Positions 8,051-26,379 of a stretch of 36,559 bases of DNA are shown here, piece after piece. Position numbers and translations under genes: made by a program. The notes below the pieces were generated by a model that saw only the letters and a program-made list of their open reading frames with translations, was not told the origin of the DNA and made no database searches. Source of the stretch: Phycisphaerae bacterium. Lineage in GTDB: Bacteria; Planctomycetota; Phycisphaerae; Sedimentisphaerales; SM23-30. The stretch is taken from the NCBI GenBank assembly GCA_016342495.1, contig JAEIOG010000047.1:1-36559 (forward strand), given 5' to 3'. Within the stretch, counting starts at the first letter, position 1. Each line of letters opens with the position of its first letter.

Positions 8051-8851
8051 ATGATGCGTAAGCTTTTTATTGCAGGTAACTGGAAAATGAATCTTGATGA
8101 CGTTGGCGCGGTCCAACTTTGCCAGGACCTGAAAACCCAACTGGCTGGCTGCGGAGCAGCTAAAGTCGATGTTGCAGTCTTTCCACCTTTCGTTTATTTG
8201 CCAATAGTAGCAGAAGCCTTGCGTGGTTCTACTATCGCTATGGGTGCCCAGGATGTCTGGACTGAAGGCAATGGCGCTTTTACTGGCGAAGTCAGCGTTG
8301 ATATGCTCAAAGATGTCGGCTGTACTTTTGTTCTGGTTGGTCATAGCGAAAGACGTCATGTCATTGGCGAAACCAATGAACTGCTTAACAAAAAAGCTAA
8401 AGTTGCCTTAGCTGGCGGCCTTAATGTCATTTTCTGTATCGGCGAACTCCTTGAAGAACGCCAAGGCAATAAAACTGAAGCTGTCGTCGAAGAGCAAATT
8501 CGCTTAGGCCTAGCTGGCATCACCGCCGAGCAGATGGCTAATGTCACTATTGCTTATGAACCAGTATGGGCAATCGGCACTGGTGTTACCGCCTCTAAAG
8601 AGCAGGCTCAGGAAGCTCACGCTTTCACTCGTAAAATATTGACTGACTTGTTTGGTGCTGAAGTTGCAGAAGCAACTCGTATCCAATATGGCGGCAGCGT
8701 CAAGGGTGCTAATGCCGCTGAACTTACCGCTGAGCCTGATGTTGATGGTGCTTTAGTTGGCGGTGCCAGCCTTAAAGCTGATGACTTCATGGCTATTATC
8801 AACAATGGTGCTTCCAATGTTGGTGGCTGTGGCGGTTGCTGCTGCGGATAA
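8051..8851 (+). CDS. tpiA: triosephosphate isomerase
   Basis: It interconverts dihydroxyacetone phosphate and glyceraldehyde 3-phosphate in glycolysis and gluconeogenesis. The 266-residue protein has the complete active site: K12 in GNWKMN, H98 in VGHSERR, E170 in AYEPVWAIGTG (loop 6), and the phosphate-binding YGGSVK and GGASL segments near the end. AGGAG at 8042-8046 sits four bases before the ATG. The family is usually about 250 residues. The extra C-terminal tail NVGGCGGCCCG, with four cysteines in the last eight residues, is unusual. secG follows after a hairpin at 8865-8893. The enzyme call is secure; the role of the tail is unknown. Confidence 0.97.
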   Translation: MMRKLFIAGNWKMNLDDVGAVQLCQDLKTQLAGCGAAKVDVAVFPPFVYLPIVAEALRGSTIAMGAQDVWTEGNGAFTGEVSVDMLKDVGCTFVLVGHSERRHVIGETNELLNKKAKVALAGGLNVIFCIGELLEERQGNKTEAVVEEQIRLGLAGITAEQMANVTIAYEPVWAIGTGVTASKEQAQEAHAFTRKILTDLFGAEVAEATRIQYGGSVKGANAAELTAEPDVDGALVGGASLKADDFMAIINNGASNVGGCGGCCCG

Positions 8852-11275: not shown

Positions 11276-11827
11276 ATGAAATCATTGCAAGGCAAAGAAA
11301 TACTGTTAGGGATCACCGGGGGCATAGCGGCTTACAAATCTGCTATGCTCTGTTCGGACCTTATCAAGCTTAAAGCTTCGGTAACGGTTATGATGACCGA
11401 AAATGCCACGCACTTTGTCGGGCCCTTGACTTTCAGCACCCTTACTTCCCGGCCTGTCTACAGCAATATGTGGGCCGCCGAACAGGTTTACGATCCTCAG
11501 CATATCAGTTTAACCGATAAAGCCGATCTCATTGTTGTCGCCCCGGCAACTGCTAATATTATCGGCAAGATGACCAACGGTATCTGCGACGACCTGCTTA
11601 GCACTACGCTTTGCGGGGCCAATTGCGATATTCTACTTGCCCCGGCGATGAACACTCGCATGTGGCAATATCCTGCAACTCAGCGAAATCTCAAAACCCT
11701 CAACAGCGATGGCATCCATTTTGTTGGCCCTGGTACTGGCCGTCTGGCTTGCGGTACCGAAGGGGCTGGCCGCATGAGCGAACCAGCTGAAATCCTCGAA
11801 AAAATCATCGAACTAATCGGAAAATGA
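11276..11827 (+). CDS. coaC: phosphopantothenoylcysteine decarboxylase (CoaC flavoprotein)
   Basis: It decarboxylates 4'-phosphopantothenoylcysteine to 4'-phosphopantetheine with FMN, in coenzyme A synthesis. The 183-residue HFCD flavoprotein shows [13 protein letters not shown] at the FMN site, the catalytic H76 in HISL, the substrate-clamp PAMN at 123-126 followed by TRMW, and C159 in [13 protein letters not shown]. It is a stand-alone protein, whereas most bacteria have a fused CoaBC. A TGA stop at 11825-11827 is followed one base later by the coaB ATG, so the two halves are made from adjacent frames. An ATG at 11271 is out of frame. Confidence 0.93.
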
Positions 11828-16386: not shown

Positions 16387-17313
16387 ATGACAAAACGAAG
16401 AGCTTTTACATTAATAGAATTGCTGGTGGTCATTTCCATCATTGCATTGCTGGTTTCGATCCTGATGCCAGCGTTGTCAAAGGCACGCCTGACGGCTAAG
16501 ATGACAGTCTGCAAATCCAATCAACGCCAACTTGTCATGGGCCTGAACCTCTATGCCAGCGAAAACAGTGATAGACTGCCAGAATCACCCAGCAGGCGTT
16601 TGGGAAGAATTGGTGACTATCATCGCCCTTATGAATTAGCCTGGTTTGAAAATACCATGGGCTTTATTTATGAAAATTTTAGTTCCGCCAACGCTCCCCA
16701 GCAGATTCCCAATGCTGCAGGGCTGACTCTGGGTAAATATCTGCCCGAAGTTGGAGTGTACAACTGCACCCTGGCCCCGATAGATAATAATGATCCCTGG
16801 CCGCCCAGAGGTTCAAAATATCCCCCGGCTACCAATCCCGATGGCTCCACCTTGCAATATGGTAAAGCATACCGGGACGCCAACTATTCATCTTTACATT
16901 CAACCTATACTTTGCTGTGGAACTATCAGGGTTACAATCAAAAAGTTTCGCGTAATATCCCACAGAATTGGAACTGGTTCGATTTTGAAGGGCCCAAGAA
17001 TACAGCCAGCAAAAACAAACTCGTTGTACAGGACTCATTTTTTTACCTTAACACACACCCAAATGTCGTTTGGCCCGAAACTTATAGCTGGTATTCAAGC
17101 CATCCATATGATAATAGCTCAAAAAATACACCTTATTTTACCAGCAAGGCCAATGAACCATCGCCTACCGAAGATGACATAGACCGCCCAGTAGTAAATC
17201 TGAATGCTGGTTATATCGATGGCAGCGTCAGACAATTTGACACCGATGGAAAAAATACGGTTAAATGCAGGAATTGGGGCGCTATCGGCTATTTAACAAG
17301 AGAATTTAAATAA
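16387..17313 (+). CDS. prepilin-type pseudopilin-like exported protein, paralogue 1
   Basis: The 308-residue protein starts MTKRRAFTLIELLVVISIIAL. This is a type IV prepilin signal: a basic leader, cleavage expected before F7 (after A6), the essential E at +5, and a hydrophobic helix ending LSKAR. The rest is a globular domain with few features: VCKSNQRQLVMGLNLYASE follows the helix, and AGYIDGSVRQFDTDG near the end corresponds to the H-x9-DG region of DUF1559-like proteins, with the histidine replaced by proline (RP-x9-DG). Paralogue 2 is similar over its whole length. Such proteins occur in very large numbers in Phycisphaerae and Lentisphaerae, and their role is not established. Export by a type II/IV pilus machinery is expected; no such machinery genes are in the window. 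Confidence 0.85.
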   Translation: MTKRRAFTLIELLVVISIIALLVSILMPALSKARLTAKMTVCKSNQRQLVMGLNLYASENSDRLPESPSRRLGRIGDYHRPYELAWFENTMGFIYENFSSANAPQQIPNAAGLTLGKYLPEVGVYNCTLAPIDNNDPWPPRGSKYPPATNPDGSTLQYGKAYRDANYSSLHSTYTLLWNYQGYNQKVSRNIPQNWNWFDFEGPKNTASKNKLVVQDSFFYLNTHPNVVWPETYSWYSSHPYDNSSKNTPYFTSKANEPSPTEDDIDRPVVNLNAGYIDGSVRQFDTDGKNTVKCRNWGAIGYLTREFK

Positions 17314-17429
17314 CGATTTGCTCAGTTTTTATGGTTTTCTTATTAAATAAACCTCAAAGTCGCAGAAAAACTATGAAACTTGTCCTATTGAGCATGCAAA
17401 CAAAAAAATATTAATTTTCACCACTTTTT

Positions 17430-17471
17430 GAGTACAAAAATAATCTTTTTCTGTGATTAATCAATAAGAAG
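17430..17471 (+). promoter_or_regulatory. upstream shared element, copy 2
   Basis: It repeats the block before paralogue 1: GAGTACAAAAATA, three bases, TTTTTCT, a variable part containing GATTA, then TAAGAAG. It ends 62 bases before the ATG of paralogue 2. Flanking sequence is not conserved, which suggests selection on the block or recent duplication. Confidence 0.5.
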
Positions 17472-17533
17472 CCTATAGTTTTGGGCAGGTTTTACACTAC
17501 AGCTTTAAAAAAGCTAATATTTTGGAGTCTATT

Positions 17534-18463
17534 ATGATGAAAAAAAGAGGTTTTACTTTAATTGAATTGCTGGTGGTTATTTCAATCATCGCTTTACTGG
17601 TATCAATCCTGATGCCCGCCCTTTCAAAAGCCCGCTATTCCGCAAAACTTACGGTTTGCAAATCTAATCAGCGTCAACTTCTAATGGGGCTGAATTTATT
17701 CGCCAGCGAACATGATGACAAACTGCCGGTATCTCCCAGTATGGTTTCTGATAGCGGCTATCATCGACCTTATGAATTATCATGGAACGGCAATAATTGG
17801 GGAGTTAGAACAACCCCAATAGCAACGGCAGCTGGTACGACTCTGGGGACATACCTTCCAGAAGTTGGGGTATTTAACTGCACGCTGGCACCTATTGATA
17901 AAAACAGCGAATGGCCTCCACAAGGCTCAAAATTTGCACCAGCAATTGACCCTGATACTGGCGCAACACTTAAATATGGCGAATCATACAAAAAAGCTAA
18001 TTATACCCTGTTGCATTCTTCATACACTCTCTTGTGGAACTACCAAGGTTATAACTTTGAAAAATCTGCAGCTGTAAACCAAAACCTCAAATTTACTAAT
18101 AAAAATAAGGGAGAAGATTTTGTCGCACCAACATCAACTGCTTCCAAAGACAAACTAGCCGTTCAGGACTCACTATTTTGGTTACCTGAGGGTTACAGCA
18201 ATTTCGTTTGGGATTATTATGGATATATCAGCTCTCATCCATTTAAGGGCGCCGCAAAGAAAGCTCCTTATTTTGTTAGAGATGGAGCCTTACCGAGTAA
18301 TTCAGCTCAAATTACTGACGTCGAAGTTGCCGAACGCCCCGATGCCCAGCTAAATGCCGGATATATCGATGGAAGTGTAAGACAATTCTCTTCCGATCCC
18401 GAGAACATGTATAAACACCAAAATTATGGCGCGTTTGGTTTCATTACCAGAGAACATAAATAA
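17534..18463 (+). CDS. prepilin-type pseudopilin-like exported protein, paralogue 2
   Basis: The 309-residue protein starts MMKKRGFTLIELLVVISIIAL, a classical prepilin signal with G/F cleavage. The body parallels paralogue 1: KSNQRQLLMGLNLFASEHDD, TLGTYLPEVGVFNCTLAPIDKN, LLWNYQGYN, and LNAGYIDGSVRQFSSDPE, again with Pro in place of the His of H-x9-DG. The start at 17534 is supported by GGAG at 17524-17527; a TTG at 17522 is in frame but would include that site. The ATG at 17537 is equally possible. A rho-independent terminator follows 20 bases after the stop. Confidence 0.85.
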   Translation: MMKKRGFTLIELLVVISIIALLVSILMPALSKARYSAKLTVCKSNQRQLLMGLNLFASEHDDKLPVSPSMVSDSGYHRPYELSWNGNNWGVRTTPIATAAGTTLGTYLPEVGVFNCTLAPIDKNSEWPPQGSKFAPAIDPDTGATLKYGESYKKANYTLLHSSYTLLWNYQGYNFEKSAAVNQNLKFTNKNKGEDFVAPTSTASKDKLAVQDSLFWLPEGYSNFVWDYYGYISSHPFKGAAKKAPYFVRDGALPSNSAQITDVEVAERPDAQLNAGYIDGSVRQFSSDPENMYKHQNYGAFGFITREHK

Positions 18464-18483
18464 TAATAAAACACTATAACCTT

Positions 18484-18513
18484 AAAGCCGGGGCATTTGC
18501 TTCGGCTTTTTTT
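18484..18513 (+). terminator. terminator after pseudopilin paralogue 2
   Basis: AAAGCCG pairs with CGGCTTT around a 12-base loop and is followed by a T run (TTTTTTT in total). It is a typical rho-independent terminator. Confidence 0.8.
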
Positions 18514-18571
18514 ATAAAAATATATTTTTCCGGTTCTTTTTTGACTCCTAAAATAATTACCTTATGAATAC

Positions 18572-18597
18572 TCAGGCTATTTTAAGCATCAGCCTGA
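18572..18597 (+). promoter_or_regulatory. inverted repeat before pseudopilin 3
   Basis: TCAGGCT (18572-18578) and AGCCTGA (18591-18597) are perfect inverted repeats with a 12-base spacer, 38 bases before the start of the third pseudopilin gene. It may be an operator or a hairpin in the 5' leader. Confidence 0.35.
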
Positions 18598-18634
18598 AAA
18601 ATATAGTGTATATCATAATTTTATGGAGATTTTT

Positions 18635-19414
18635 ATGCGTAAAAGAACTGCTTTCACCCTTATTGAGCTACTAGTGGTAATATCAATTATTGCTCTACTG
18701 GTGTCAATACTGATGCCTGCACTTTCCAAAGCCCGAAAAACCGCTCAAGGGGCGGCCTGTCTTTCAAATTTGCGGCAATGGGGTATTTTTTATCAGCAAT
18801 ATTGCAATGATTATAATGATAAATTTATCGATGCCTATGACTCTTTTAATAGTGCCGGCAATAGATGGTATTACACATTATCAAAATACTATGACAACCC
18901 TGAAATCAGGCTTTGCCCATCAGCAACTCAGCTGGGAAAACGTGATTGGGGGTCTGTAGGGAAATATGGTGAAAAAGACAAAGCCTGGGCTTTTACCGGT
19001 GACGGACAAACCAAAGACAATAATGGTAGCTATTCATTGAATCACTGGGTACAAAACCCCATTAAATTGCCTGGAAACTGGGGGAATTTCAAAAATCATT
19101 TCTGGCGAAGTAATACAGTCAAAAATGGCACTGAAATCCCAATTTTTACCGATGGTATATGGATGGGGCTAAGCCCCTTTGAAACGGACAATGCCCCTGC
19201 CACCGATACTGAACTTGCGCTGGCTGGTTGGGTTGATAGCTTAAAACGTGTCTGTCTGGACCGACATAGCATGAAAATCCAGGCTGTCTATATTGATGGC
19301 TCGGCCAACAAAGTCCCACTGAAAAAAATATGGGAATTGCGTTGGCATAAAGGATGGTCAAGACAAACCCAGCCACCAAATGCCTGGCCAGCCTGGCTCC
19401 AAAACGCCAATTAA
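18635..19414 (+). CDS. prepilin-type pseudopilin-like exported protein with H-x9-DG motif, paralogue 3
   Basis: The 259-residue protein starts MRKRTAFTLIELLVVISIIAL, with cleavage expected between A and F. After the conserved helix the sequence differs from its two neighbours: ACLSNLRQWGIFYQQYCNDYNDKFIDAYD, a short RLCPSAT segment, and DRHSMKIQAVYIDGS, an exact H-x9-DG motif near the end. The ATG at 18635 has GGAGAT at 18625-18630; the in-frame ATG at 18623 would contain the ribosome-binding site and would lengthen the leader. It belongs to the same broad family but is an older relative rather than a recent duplicate. A bidirectional terminator follows. Confidence 0.85.
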   Translation: MRKRTAFTLIELLVVISIIALLVSILMPALSKARKTAQGAACLSNLRQWGIFYQQYCNDYNDKFIDAYDSFNSAGNRWYYTLSKYYDNPEIRLCPSATQLGKRDWGSVGKYGEKDKAWAFTGDGQTKDNNGSYSLNHWVQNPIKLPGNWGNFKNHFWRSNTVKNGTEIPIFTDGIWMGLSPFETDNAPATDTELALAGWVDSLKRVCLDRHSMKIQAVYIDGSANKVPLKKIWELRWHKGWSRQTQPPNAWPAWLQNAN

Positions 19415-19432
19415 TTCCGGTTTAATCTCAAT

Positions 19433-19480
19433 AAAAAAAAAGATAGCCCTAAACTTTAAGTTGCGGGCTATCTTTTTTTT
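19433..19480. terminator. bidirectional terminator between pseudopilin 3 and the UGA-containing gene
   Basis: A long A run followed by GATAGCCC (19442-19449) pairs with GGGCTATC (19465-19472) followed by eight T, so it works in both directions. It begins 13 bases past the TAA that ends the extended minus-strand frame but 140 bases past the internal TGA, which supports the TAA as the true 3' end. Confidence 0.85.
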
Positions 19481-19493
19481 CAAAAGTCTTCTA

Positions 19494-20888
19494 TTACTCT
19501 ACAATTTCAATAACCTTTGTCACAATTGCTTTGCCAGCCAAAGGCCCCATATCCAGACTCATTTCAACGGTGTATTTGCCAACTTTATGTTCTCGCCACG
19601 AGAACCCACAAGTGCCCCCTCAGCCATACTCCAGAGTTTTATCTTCAACAATCTTGCCATCAGCATCTTTTATAATCAGCCTGGGCCTGGTATCTGTGCC
19701 GTCTTTACATGTGAAACGCGAATAGACTACACCATTTTTATCCTCAATTATAGGTGATAAATATATTTTCTGGTTCTTTGTAAAACTACCGCTTTCTTTT
19801 ACGTCGGAATAATAACGCCTTGCTTCATCGACCGAACTTACAGTCAAATTTGGCTTAAGCATTTCTAGCGTTGTGGAGCCTTTGGATTTAATAGTAAAAT
19901 CAGGTCCTTTAGAAAAACTAACGCTCCAGCTCATATCCTCACCTTTACCGAATGTAAATGAGCCACTGGTTAATTTATATTTACCTGGCGGAAGCGTTGC
20001 TTCGGAATTTATCCTCAGGTTAATATTATTATCTTTTTGACCGGTGATTGAACCATAGGTAAGTTTGCCGTTAATTTTCTCATCATTCCCAAATTTGACA
20101 TCAAGCTTACCAAGTGGTTCAGTAACTTTTGTCAGGCAAATCCGTGGTTTATCTTTCTTACCAAAATTACCTTCGATTTTTAATTTATAATACCTATCAT
20201 GATGGCTAACCAAAGAACTTAGATAACCCGATCCCAAATATTGATCGTTACTTCCATAAATCATATATCGCGAACGACCAATTTTGCCATAATCACCTGA
20301 GATACCAGACCCGATAAGCCTGAAAATAACCAATTCACCATCAATTTCACCTTTAGCTTCAAAATAACTACTGGACTGCCAGGTTACATTCATTTGCCCT
20401 TTTTCCAGGTTTCTTAAGTAAATCTTATAACGCATAGCAGATTTAGCACCATCAGAATTTGTAGTAACAAAATCTTTAGTATAAAAAGCTGTTTCCTTGC
20501 GTGAATTTTCCTCTTTCACTACAGGCTTCAGGATATCTTTGGCTACTACTTTACCATCGCCATTATGATCAAAATAAAATGCTTTGGCCTCTTCACCTTC
20601 ATACTCTAAAGCGGCAATCTTTCTCTCTCCAACCAGGTAATATGGTGCTAATAAAATCTCACCTTTGGCCTTAGCCTGAACGGCTTTGATAAATTCATCA
20701 GGCTCGCCAGAACTGCCAAATCCATAATTACCGCTCATAAGCGTTGGCTCACCGTCAGCTCCGCTTAAACCTTTGTACTCAAATTCAAGCCAAACCACAT
20801 CTTTGTCATCTGCTTGCTGGGCATAAACAGTTCTACCTCCTATGCCAAATAAGCTAAATGCCATTATCACAATTAATAATTTCTTCAT
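19494..20888 (-). CDS. exported protein of unknown function with in-frame UGA; candidate selenoprotein
   Basis: The protein has 464 codons if the TGA at 19620-19622 (codon 423) is read through. GAGGAA precedes the ATG and a signal peptide ends about residue 24 (VYAQQ). Residues about 105-120 include DHNGDGKVVAKDILK, a calcium-binding-like loop; most of the rest is predicted beta-rich, with no family recognised. The frame reaches ...EDKTLEYG, then UGA, then GGTCGFSWREHKVGKYT... for 41 more codons to TAA at 19494. These codons look coding and end beside the terminator. A 7-bp hairpin follows the UGA at SECIS-like distance. If Sec is inserted, it would sit four residues before C427 (U-x3-C). A TGG-to-TGA or TGC-to-TGA nonsense mutation, leaving a 422-residue product, is the main alternative. 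TGA as Trp is unlikely because coaC ends with TGA. Confidence 0.6.
19582..19613 (-). promoter_or_regulatory. SECIS-like hairpin downstream of the in-frame UGA
   Basis: In the RNA, GUUCUCG and CGAGAAC form a perfect 7-bp stem closed by a UGG loop (plus 19589-19605). It begins 14 bases after the UGA, with the loop 21 bases after it. A lower 4-bp stem (ACUU with AAGU) can add across an internal loop. Published bacterial SECIS rules ask for a loop 16-37 bases from the UGA with a G in the first two loop positions, and both hold here. No base-level alignment to a known SECIS was possible. Confidence 0.5.
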
Positions 20889-25009: not shown

Positions 25010-26020
25010 ATGTTCATAGATCAAGCTGAAATTCATGTAAAAGCTGGTGATGGCGGCAATGGCTGTGTCAGTTTCCGCCGCGAAGCCCACGTGCCCCGGG
25101 GCGGACCTGATGGCGGCGATGGCGGAGATGGCGGCTCGATATATCTGCTTGCCGAAGAAGCAGTCGATACTCTGCTGGATTTCACCGGTCGTCCCCACTG
25201 GAAGGCTCAACGAGGCTTCGATGGCACCAGTCGCGACATGCATGGCAAAAATGGTGAAGACCTGATCATTGTCGTACCGGTGGGAACCATTGTCATAGAT
25301 ACCGACCATGATCTGATCATCAAAGATCTCAATGAACCGGGCATGAAAATCTGTGTTGCCAAAGGGGGCAAAGGCGGCAAAGGTAATCAGCACTTTTCCA
25401 CCCCGACTAATCAGGTCCCCAAGTCTTTTGAAGAAGGCAAAGAAGGACGCAGCCGCAATCTCAAGCTTGAACTTAAGCTCATCGCTGATATCGGGCTGGT
25501 CGGTTTGCCCAATGCCGGTAAAAGCACCCTGCTTTCCCGCATTTCAGCGGCCAAACCCAAAATAGCATCTTATCCTTTTACCACTTTAAAGCCCAGTTTA
25601 GGCATAGTTGAATTATCCGGCTATCGTCGGGTGGTAGTTGCCGATATTCCCGGCTTAATCGAAGGGGCCGCCGAGGGCCATGGCCTCGGACATGATTTCC
25701 TCCGCCATATCGAACGCACCCGCATCATCATTCATCTGGTGGATATTGCCAATCCTGATGGCTCCGATGCAGTAGAGAACTATCATTCCATCCGACGGGA
25801 GCTAAAACGTTATAGTCCTGACTTAGCTTCCAAGCCGGAAATCCTGATTGTCTCAAAAATGGATTTAGATCCGGATCAAGTCCTGCTGAAAGACTTCCAG
25901 CAAAGGCTCGGAAATAAAGTTTATCATATATCTTCGATAACCGGTCAGGGCATCGATGCGATAAAAGAGGTGCTTTGGCAAGAAGTCCAGCTGGCCAAAG
26001 CCGCCGATAATGAGATTTAA
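25010..26020 (+). CDS. obgE: Obg family GTPase
   Basis: Obg is a large-subunit ribosome-associated GTPase, essential in most bacteria. Residues 1-157 form the glycine-rich Obg fold (DQAEIHVKAGDGGNGCVSFRRE, GGPDGGDGGDGGS, KGGKGGKGNQHF). Residues 158-336 form the G domain: G1 GLPNAGKST (165-173), the SYPFTTL switch I, G3 DIPG (212-215), and SKMD as the G4 (N/T)KxD variant. The ATG at 25010 gives the typical N-terminus; only a weak GAGAA precedes it. The protein ends soon after the G domain, so the optional C-terminal OCT domain is missing. A 21-bp tandem repeat begins 20 bases after its stop. Confidence 0.95.
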   Translation: MFIDQAEIHVKAGDGGNGCVSFRREAHVPRGGPDGGDGGDGGSIYLLAEEAVDTLLDFTGRPHWKAQRGFDGTSRDMHGKNGEDLIIVVPVGTIVIDTDHDLIIKDLNEPGMKICVAKGGKGGKGNQHFSTPTNQVPKSFEEGKEGRSRNLKLELKLIADIGLVGLPNAGKSTLLSRISAAKPKIASYPFTTLKPSLGIVELSGYRRVVVADIPGLIEGAAEGHGLGHDFLRHIERTRIIIHLVDIANPDGSDAVENYHSIRRELKRYSPDLASKPEILIVSKMDLDPDQVLLKDFQQRLGNKVYHISSITGQGIDAIKEVLWQEVQLAKAADNEI

Positions 26021-26040
26021 CCCCGCCCAAAAAGCCTAAT

Positions 26041-26379
26041 GGGCGTTTTAAGCCTGAAATTGGCGATTTGAAAGCTGGTATTGACGATTTCAAGTTTAGT
26101 ATTGGCAATTTTAAGTCAGGTATTGGCGATTTGAAGCTTAGTATTGGTAATATCAAGTCAGGTATTGACGATTTCAAGCTTGGTATTGGCAATTTTAAGT
26201 CAGGTATTGGGCGTTTCAAGCTTGGTATTGGTAATTTCAAGCTTGATATTGGCAATTCCAAGTCAGGTATTGACGATTTGAAGCCTGATATTGACGATTT
26301 GAAGCCTGATATTGACGATTTCAAGTCTGATATTGGCGATTTGAAGGGTCATTTGCTGAATTTTCGGGGAGTTTTTTAG
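26041..26379 (+). repeat. 21-bp tandem repeat (minisatellite), about 15 units
   Basis: Fifteen 21-bp units run from 26041 to 26355, with consensus near GGCGATTTCAAGTCTGGTAT plus T, each divergent at a few positions. A short non-repeat tail leads to TAG at 26377-26379. Units ending in ATT stay in register, and the frame is open from 26014. If read it would give a heptapeptide repeat (for example GNFKSGI, DDLKPDI). There is no ATG and no ribosome-binding site; the only candidate start is a TTG at 26068. The minus strand is also open across it. It is most likely a non-coding minisatellite behind obg. The rest of 26380-26591 is AT-rich and without a gene. Confidence 0.85.

Follow-up and report, generated by a model that had tools for sequence, protein, structure and literature searches.

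A probable family of exported selenoproteins with a U-x3-C motif, concentrated in Planctomycetota

The locus and its paralogues

The window, i.e. the whole analysed stretch of 36,559 nucleotides from a Phycisphaerae bacterium (assembly GCA_016342495.1, contig JAEIOG010000047.1), carries on its minus strand a frame of 422 codons (20888 to 19620) that runs into a TGA and continues in the same frame for another 41 codons (residues 424-464) up to a TAA. A terminator-like inverted repeat begins 13 bases 3' of this TAA, and no further gene lies on the same strand before it (Table 1). An initial annotation had proposed the gene as a candidate selenoprotein, and its description of the TGA, the extension, the TAA and the terminator was correct to the base. 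The convergent neighbour that has the terminator in common is the last of three consecutive genes (16387-19414) with near-identical prepilin-type N termini (FTLIELLVVISIIALLVSILMPALSKAR). Elsewhere in the window, repetitive frames (FKSGIGDLKLSIGN... and, on the other strand, LKLPIPSLKSSI...) cover positions 25728-26379, which are probably a short tandem DNA repeat.

Table 1. Coordinates of the features of the putative selenoprotein gene and of related loci.
Feature	Position	Strand	Remarks
Putative Sec-protein gene	19494..20888	-	464 aa, Sec at 423, stop TAA 19496-19494
Signal-peptide-like N terminus MKKLLIVIMAFSLFGIGGRTVYAQ	20817..20888	-	read from sequence
C-terminal, predicted Ig-like domain with Sec motif	19497..19856	-	residues 345-464; AlphaFold models, fold comparison
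Putative Sec codon UGA (U423)	19620..19622	-	aligned UGA in 6 paralogues and >130 homologues
Partner Cys427 codon (U-G-G-T-C)	19608..19610	-	Cys nearly invariant in 94 aligned members
SECIS stem-loop	19589..19605	-	perfect 7 bp, loop UGG, 14 nt past UGA
Terminator-like inverted repeat, A-run and T-run	19431..19480		common to convergent gene 18623-19414
Short UGA-SECIS frame	L255:1460-1672		G000:C10, SECIS match 8628-8672; covariance model
Conserved exported protein of ~290 aa between UGA frame and transporter	L090:390-1253	-	
Same	L091:870-1733	-	
Same	L159:3047-3916	+	
Same	L136:1-786	-	

By itself the extension is unremarkable. The sole TGA-ending gene of the window (11276-11827) likewise remains open for 33 codons past its TGA, so that 41 open codons are weak evidence and the case must rest on comparison. 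The read-through protein was used to search the entire genome (5.42 Mb, 221 contigs) and proved to be one of seven family copies. Three paralogues stand in tandem on contig 26, and the other three are single copies on contigs 140, 194 and 216. In all seven there is exactly one in-frame TGA, always at the same place in the motif [YF]-G-U-G-G-x-C-[GR]-[FY]-x-W-R, with a TAA or TAG shortly after; in one copy an additional residue precedes the Cys. Identity to the window protein over the full length is only 20-26%, which indicates old duplicates and not copies of one error. Directly 3' of the three tandem copies (L099:6151-7208), a glutathione-peroxidase-like gene (Cys form) and a DsrE-like gene were noted by eye.

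Absence of sel genes from the genome would have refuted the initial annotation. The genome contains selA (541 bits), selB (336 bits), selC, the tRNA-Sec with anticodon UCA (74 bits), and two selD genes, one of which bears a UGA at its usual place (APCAGUVGK). The selA gene of this genome stands apart from the family copies.

Conservation of the UGA codon, the hairpin and the link to sel genes

Profile searches, in which the Sec position was written as Cys, covered 161 genomes from the order and a phylum-wide sample of 392. Most genomes surveyed are metagenome assemblies. Family matches were found in 58 and 29 genomes, respectively, and a single genome can have as many as eleven of them. The defining motif is G-U-G-G-x-C-x-[FY]-x-W-R in the C-terminal domain, and the window protein is homologous along its length to family members (E as low as 3.6e-80). 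No relatives were returned when the genome-contig collection was searched with the single window protein as query.

In a set of 139 members that were not selected for TGA, the residue at the Sec position was U in 134; a Cys-coded profile would favour Cys forms over UGA forms. The other five comprise one locus in which the TGA is changed to GGA (L057), a degenerated second copy (L058), two weak distant matches (L122, L123) and a ‘Cys’ homologue (L129) that we judged to be a short spurious frame. Further degenerate copies (the second copy of G210, and G039:C238) were viewed apart from this tally. The clearest Cys form is a divergent homologue (QCCGNYRLSW) in G097, a genome without a selA match. 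Cys homologues are the usual support for a selenoprotein; in this family they are almost absent, the cases noted being the divergent one in G097 and the doubtful L129. Neither this near absence nor the seven copies in one genome had been part of the initial annotation, which had listed as possible refutations homologues with Trp or nothing at position 423, or a TGG misread as TGA. The alignment contradicts the former, and sequencing error is ruled out because the seven paralogous copies and more than 130 independently assembled homologues carry the UGA.

A TGA-containing DNA pattern led to over 113 loci in Planctomycetota (Phycisphaerae, Sedimentisphaerales, Pirellulales, Brocadiia), Verrucomicrobiota, Lentisphaerota and Sumerlaeota, with a few unchecked ones in other groups. 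Since the pattern selects for UGA, these loci were used for taxonomic spread and context only and were kept out of the U tally and the tested SECIS statistics. The family occurs chiefly in Planctomycetota and also in the other three phyla.

The sequence past the UGA behaves as translated sequence: in 41 related member pairs the share of differences that falls on third codon positions is 0.56-0.57 downstream of the UGA and 0.51 upstream, where 0.33 would be expected without constraint, and the bias in the extension thus matches that of the preceding codons. The case is raised above chance by the recurrence of TGA, motif and hairpin alike in the six paralogues and in over 130 homologues.

The hairpin of the window gene (5' arm 19605-19599, loop 19598-19596, 3' arm 19595-19589, minus strand) lies within published limits for bacterial SECIS elements, which require a loop of 3-9 nt with a G in the first two positions, a stem of 4-16 bp, 16-37 nt from UGA to loop and a minimum free energy (MFE) of at most -7.5. 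Its loop is UGG, its stem has 7 bp, the distance from UGA to loop is 21 nt and the MFE of the 48-nt element is -12.6 kcal/mol. Stems of at least 7 bp occur in 85% of family genes compared to ~21% of synonymous recodings. In 108 distinct members, again not selected for TGA, the seven stem pairs are formed in 92% of cells, in controls slid along the sequence in 22-58%. In 76 sequences without this genome, the corresponding values were 92.5% and 24-58%, and stem covariation was 0.307 against 0.131 after shuffling; two-sided changes were counted in 38 stem cells of 76 sequences against 8.5 in shuffles, none of 500 of which scored as high. The shuffles ignore relatedness, the slid controls do not. 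A covariance model built from 76 sequences, this genome excluded, recovered the window element (19584-19628, minus strand; 51.3 bits, E 2.6e-13; next match 8.9 bits) and picked up all seven family copies of the genome. The Rfam model SECIS_1 (RF00031) had no match in the genome, but the control search was silent as well and the result is uninformative; an Rfam scan of the region gave only chance matches below threshold. The stem, loop and spacing of the initial annotation are confirmed, and the U-x3-C spacing of U423 and C427 is present in the sequence as described.

The family follows selA. It was found in 44 of the 45 selA genomes of the order, compared to 14 of 116 without a selA match (odds ratio 320, Fisher p = 6e-26, in a test that ignores relatedness). 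In 27 of these 45 genomes selA has a family match no more than 3 kb away; with the limit set at 15 kb the number rises to 32. Adjacency (0.15-1.9 kb) recurs elsewhere in the phylum (G172, G465, G438, G191, G179, G348), and in G031 an array of family genes encloses selB and selA. A strong selA was present in 23 of the 25 genomes of the phylum sample with a TGA-bearing match, against a background of 239/392. No selA match was obtained in four genomes with clear UGA-bearing members, G030 (L284), G047 (L286), G074 (L285) and G443 (L287), and only a weak one in G210, which has UGA-bearing copies. Incomplete assemblies may be the cause, and selB was not searched there; the assembly of G030 is a single contig of ~90% completeness.

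Decoding of the UGA, short frames and possible function

Conservation of the UGA, coding sequence past it, a covarying SECIS and co-occurrence and linkage with sel genes were all observed by computation. From these observations we infer that the window gene very probably encodes a real selenocysteine-containing protein; selenocysteine insertion itself is an inference, and there are no selenium or protein data. In the model that we hold with high confidence, the gene is one of seven paralogues of a large family, SelB and tRNA-Sec(UCA) would decode the UGA at codon 423 as selenocysteine, directed by the hairpin 14 nt downstream, translation would go on for 41 codons to the TAA, and the product would leave the cytoplasm as an exported selenoprotein. 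The candidate status given in the initial annotation is thus strongly supported by homologues, sel genes and the hairpin.

Different readings of the UGA have to be weighed against this model. If it were a true stop, the downstream frame would be what is left of a longer gene, or an extension of one that is open by chance, and the hairpin would be incidental. The openness of a comparable stretch past the other TGA of the window, the appearance of a 7-bp stem in about a fifth of synonymous recodings and the degenerated copies (second copies of L058 and G210, G039:C238) are compatible with it; that UGA, motif and post-UGA domain are alike in seven paralogous copies and more than 130 homologues is not, nor are the third-position bias, the covariation and the sel linkage, and we consider the chance of a true stop negligible. 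Readthrough by other means, i.e. by a suppressor tRNA, by insertion of Trp or Cys or by reassignment of UGA, draws on the lack of direct proof for Sec as the inserted residue and on the few UGA-bearing genomes without a selA match. It retains no more than a slim chance, since TGA ends an ordinary gene of the window and many family genes, the hairpin is of the conserved SelB type, the distribution follows selA and, in a genome lacking selA, the closest substitute for Sec is Cys. The UGA-SECIS unit could also be mainly regulatory, with UGA translation reporting selenium supply and the protein end mattering less. Short degenerate UGA-SECIS frames do head a transporter operon, mostly followed by terminator-like repeats (see below). 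This explanation can apply to the short frames, however, and not to the window copy, which is long, constrained as a protein and not followed by a same-strand gene before its terminator; for this gene we regard it as very unlikely.

The covariance model also matched the short frame MYCFAITMNLTTNTYG-U-GGIRRCSCRV... on contig 10. Little of the protein motif survives in its peptide (...TYG-U-GGIRRCSCRV...), but the UGA and a perfect 7-bp SECIS are kept. It is followed 3' by a terminator-like repeat and then by genes for an NMT1-like binding protein, a permease, an ATPase and selD. The order contains 16 relatives of the binding protein, 15 of which reach at least 50% identity. In the window genome and 15 others (L267-L282) it is found mostly in selA genomes, often beside selA or family genes. 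All 14 loci with enough upstream sequence have a UGA-SECIS frame on that side of it, be it a regular family gene or a degenerate short frame, and in 12 of the 14 a terminator-like repeat follows within 160 bases, although the scan was loose with a background of ~7% for stems of at least 8 bp. In this genome the frame is directly 5' of the binding protein gene; elsewhere a gene of ~290 codons stands between them, and one of the encoded proteins matches Phenol_MetA_deg, an outer-membrane-barrel type. These arrangements suggest, as a hypothesis, that the transporter-selD genes are a probable selenium-uptake operon with the binding protein as a candidate part of the importer. We tentatively consider it possible that the UGA-SECIS unit additionally acts as a selenium sensor ahead of this operon, with an intrinsic terminator behind the short frame. 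Passage of ribosomes over the UGA, with Sec-tRNA available, would then set expression of the outer-membrane barrel, binding protein, permease and ATPase, and of selD in this genome. As a separate observation, a methyltransferase gene (L092:13807-14610, minus strand) lies right 3' of a short UGA-SECIS frame and beside selA in G159, and a start sequence similar to that of this methyltransferase follows family copies at L168 and L214.

The last 120 residues of the window protein are predicted by AlphaFold to form an all-beta Ig-like sandwich (pLDDT 86 for the whole protein, 90 for the domain alone). The fold matches listed include alpha-2-macroglobulin, filamin and CopC (Z 8.5), with Z ~8-9 overall; judged from the model, they reveal a common arrangement and no function, Z values in this range being unspecific. 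No thioredoxin-like match was among those listed, which does not exclude unlisted families, and a search against sequences of solved structures gave one marginal match. All that the fold searches returned were generic Ig-like matches; an assignment to Trx-like, SoxYZ- or DsbD-type proteins was considered and dropped. A catalytic domain was not found. We propose an exported U-x3-C redox domain because the N terminus resembles a signal peptide and several relatives have, by eye, a lipoprotein-like or membrane-spanning region. The chances are about evenly balanced that U423 and C427 form a selenenylsulfide/selenol-thiol couple for extracytoplasmic redox chemistry on thiols or peroxides; the motif alone points to it and the activity is inferred. 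With Sec inserted all the same, U-x3-C might instead bind a metal or a selenium or sulfur ligand in an exported binding or sensor protein. CopC-type copper proteins bind their ligands by Ig-like domains, and the CopC match, the adjoining transporter-selD operon and the missing catalytic domain speak for this possibility, the main alternative to a redox role, which we nevertheless consider less likely than not: the Z values are unspecific, and strict retention of Sec over Cys suits redox chemistry better.

Relation to known families and operons

The family is apparently uncatalogued, as far as the open literature goes, and the statement of the initial annotation that no known selenoprotein family is recognisable holds in the libraries and papers within reach. 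Pfam, NCBIfam 20.0 and Rfam have no model that describes it: no NCBIfam model matched in 27 members, and the window protein reached no curated Pfam cut-off (FlgD_ig 16.6 bits, cut-off 27). None of the 119 prokaryotic families in a 2026 catalogue (PMC13188914, Table 1) fits by name, domain or motif. If our reading is true, the family escaped notice for two reasons: gene callers stop at UGA, with standard annotation truncating every member before its conserved end, and discovery methods depend on Cys homologues. Selenocysteine chemistry would then reach into an Ig-like exported domain. The family would also be one of the main users of Sec machinery here, given its presence in nearly every selA genome of the order, would point to a candidate selenium transporter and would offer a direct case for why Sec stays where Cys is not tolerated.

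Most characterised selenoproteins are Trx-like (PMC13188914), and almost all have numerous Cys homologues (deep-Sep; PMC12013277). The present family resembles the catalogued ones (PMC13188914) in its in-frame UGA, a rule-conforming downstream SECIS, a Sec near a Cys and the presence of sel genes; in contrast to typical selenoproteins it is predicted to be Ig-like and has almost no Cys homologues, and no catalogued family has U-x3-C in an Ig-like exported protein. Hypothetical protein DG (NF049953) has the similar motif GUxG, yet its NCBIfam model, like all others, matched none of the 27 members. FlgD_ig (PF13860) and MG2 (PF01835) are Ig-like beta-sandwiches too (best matches 7e-4 and 1.7e-5 among 27 members), but neither of these curated families has a Sec motif as its defining feature.

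A SECIS-like element is present in the 5' region of the E. coli selAB mRNA. The short leader frames described here likewise place SECIS-type RNA ahead of selenium-pathway genes, whereas their element lies inside a UGA-containing frame and is followed by a terminator-like repeat; the window gene is not concerned by this likeness. Clustering of selenoprotein genes is also known from the SAO and Tso operons, in SAO together with ABC transporter genes (PMC13188914, section 9), while here many paralogues of one family stand beside selA and selB and beside an NMT1-like transporter-selD operon.
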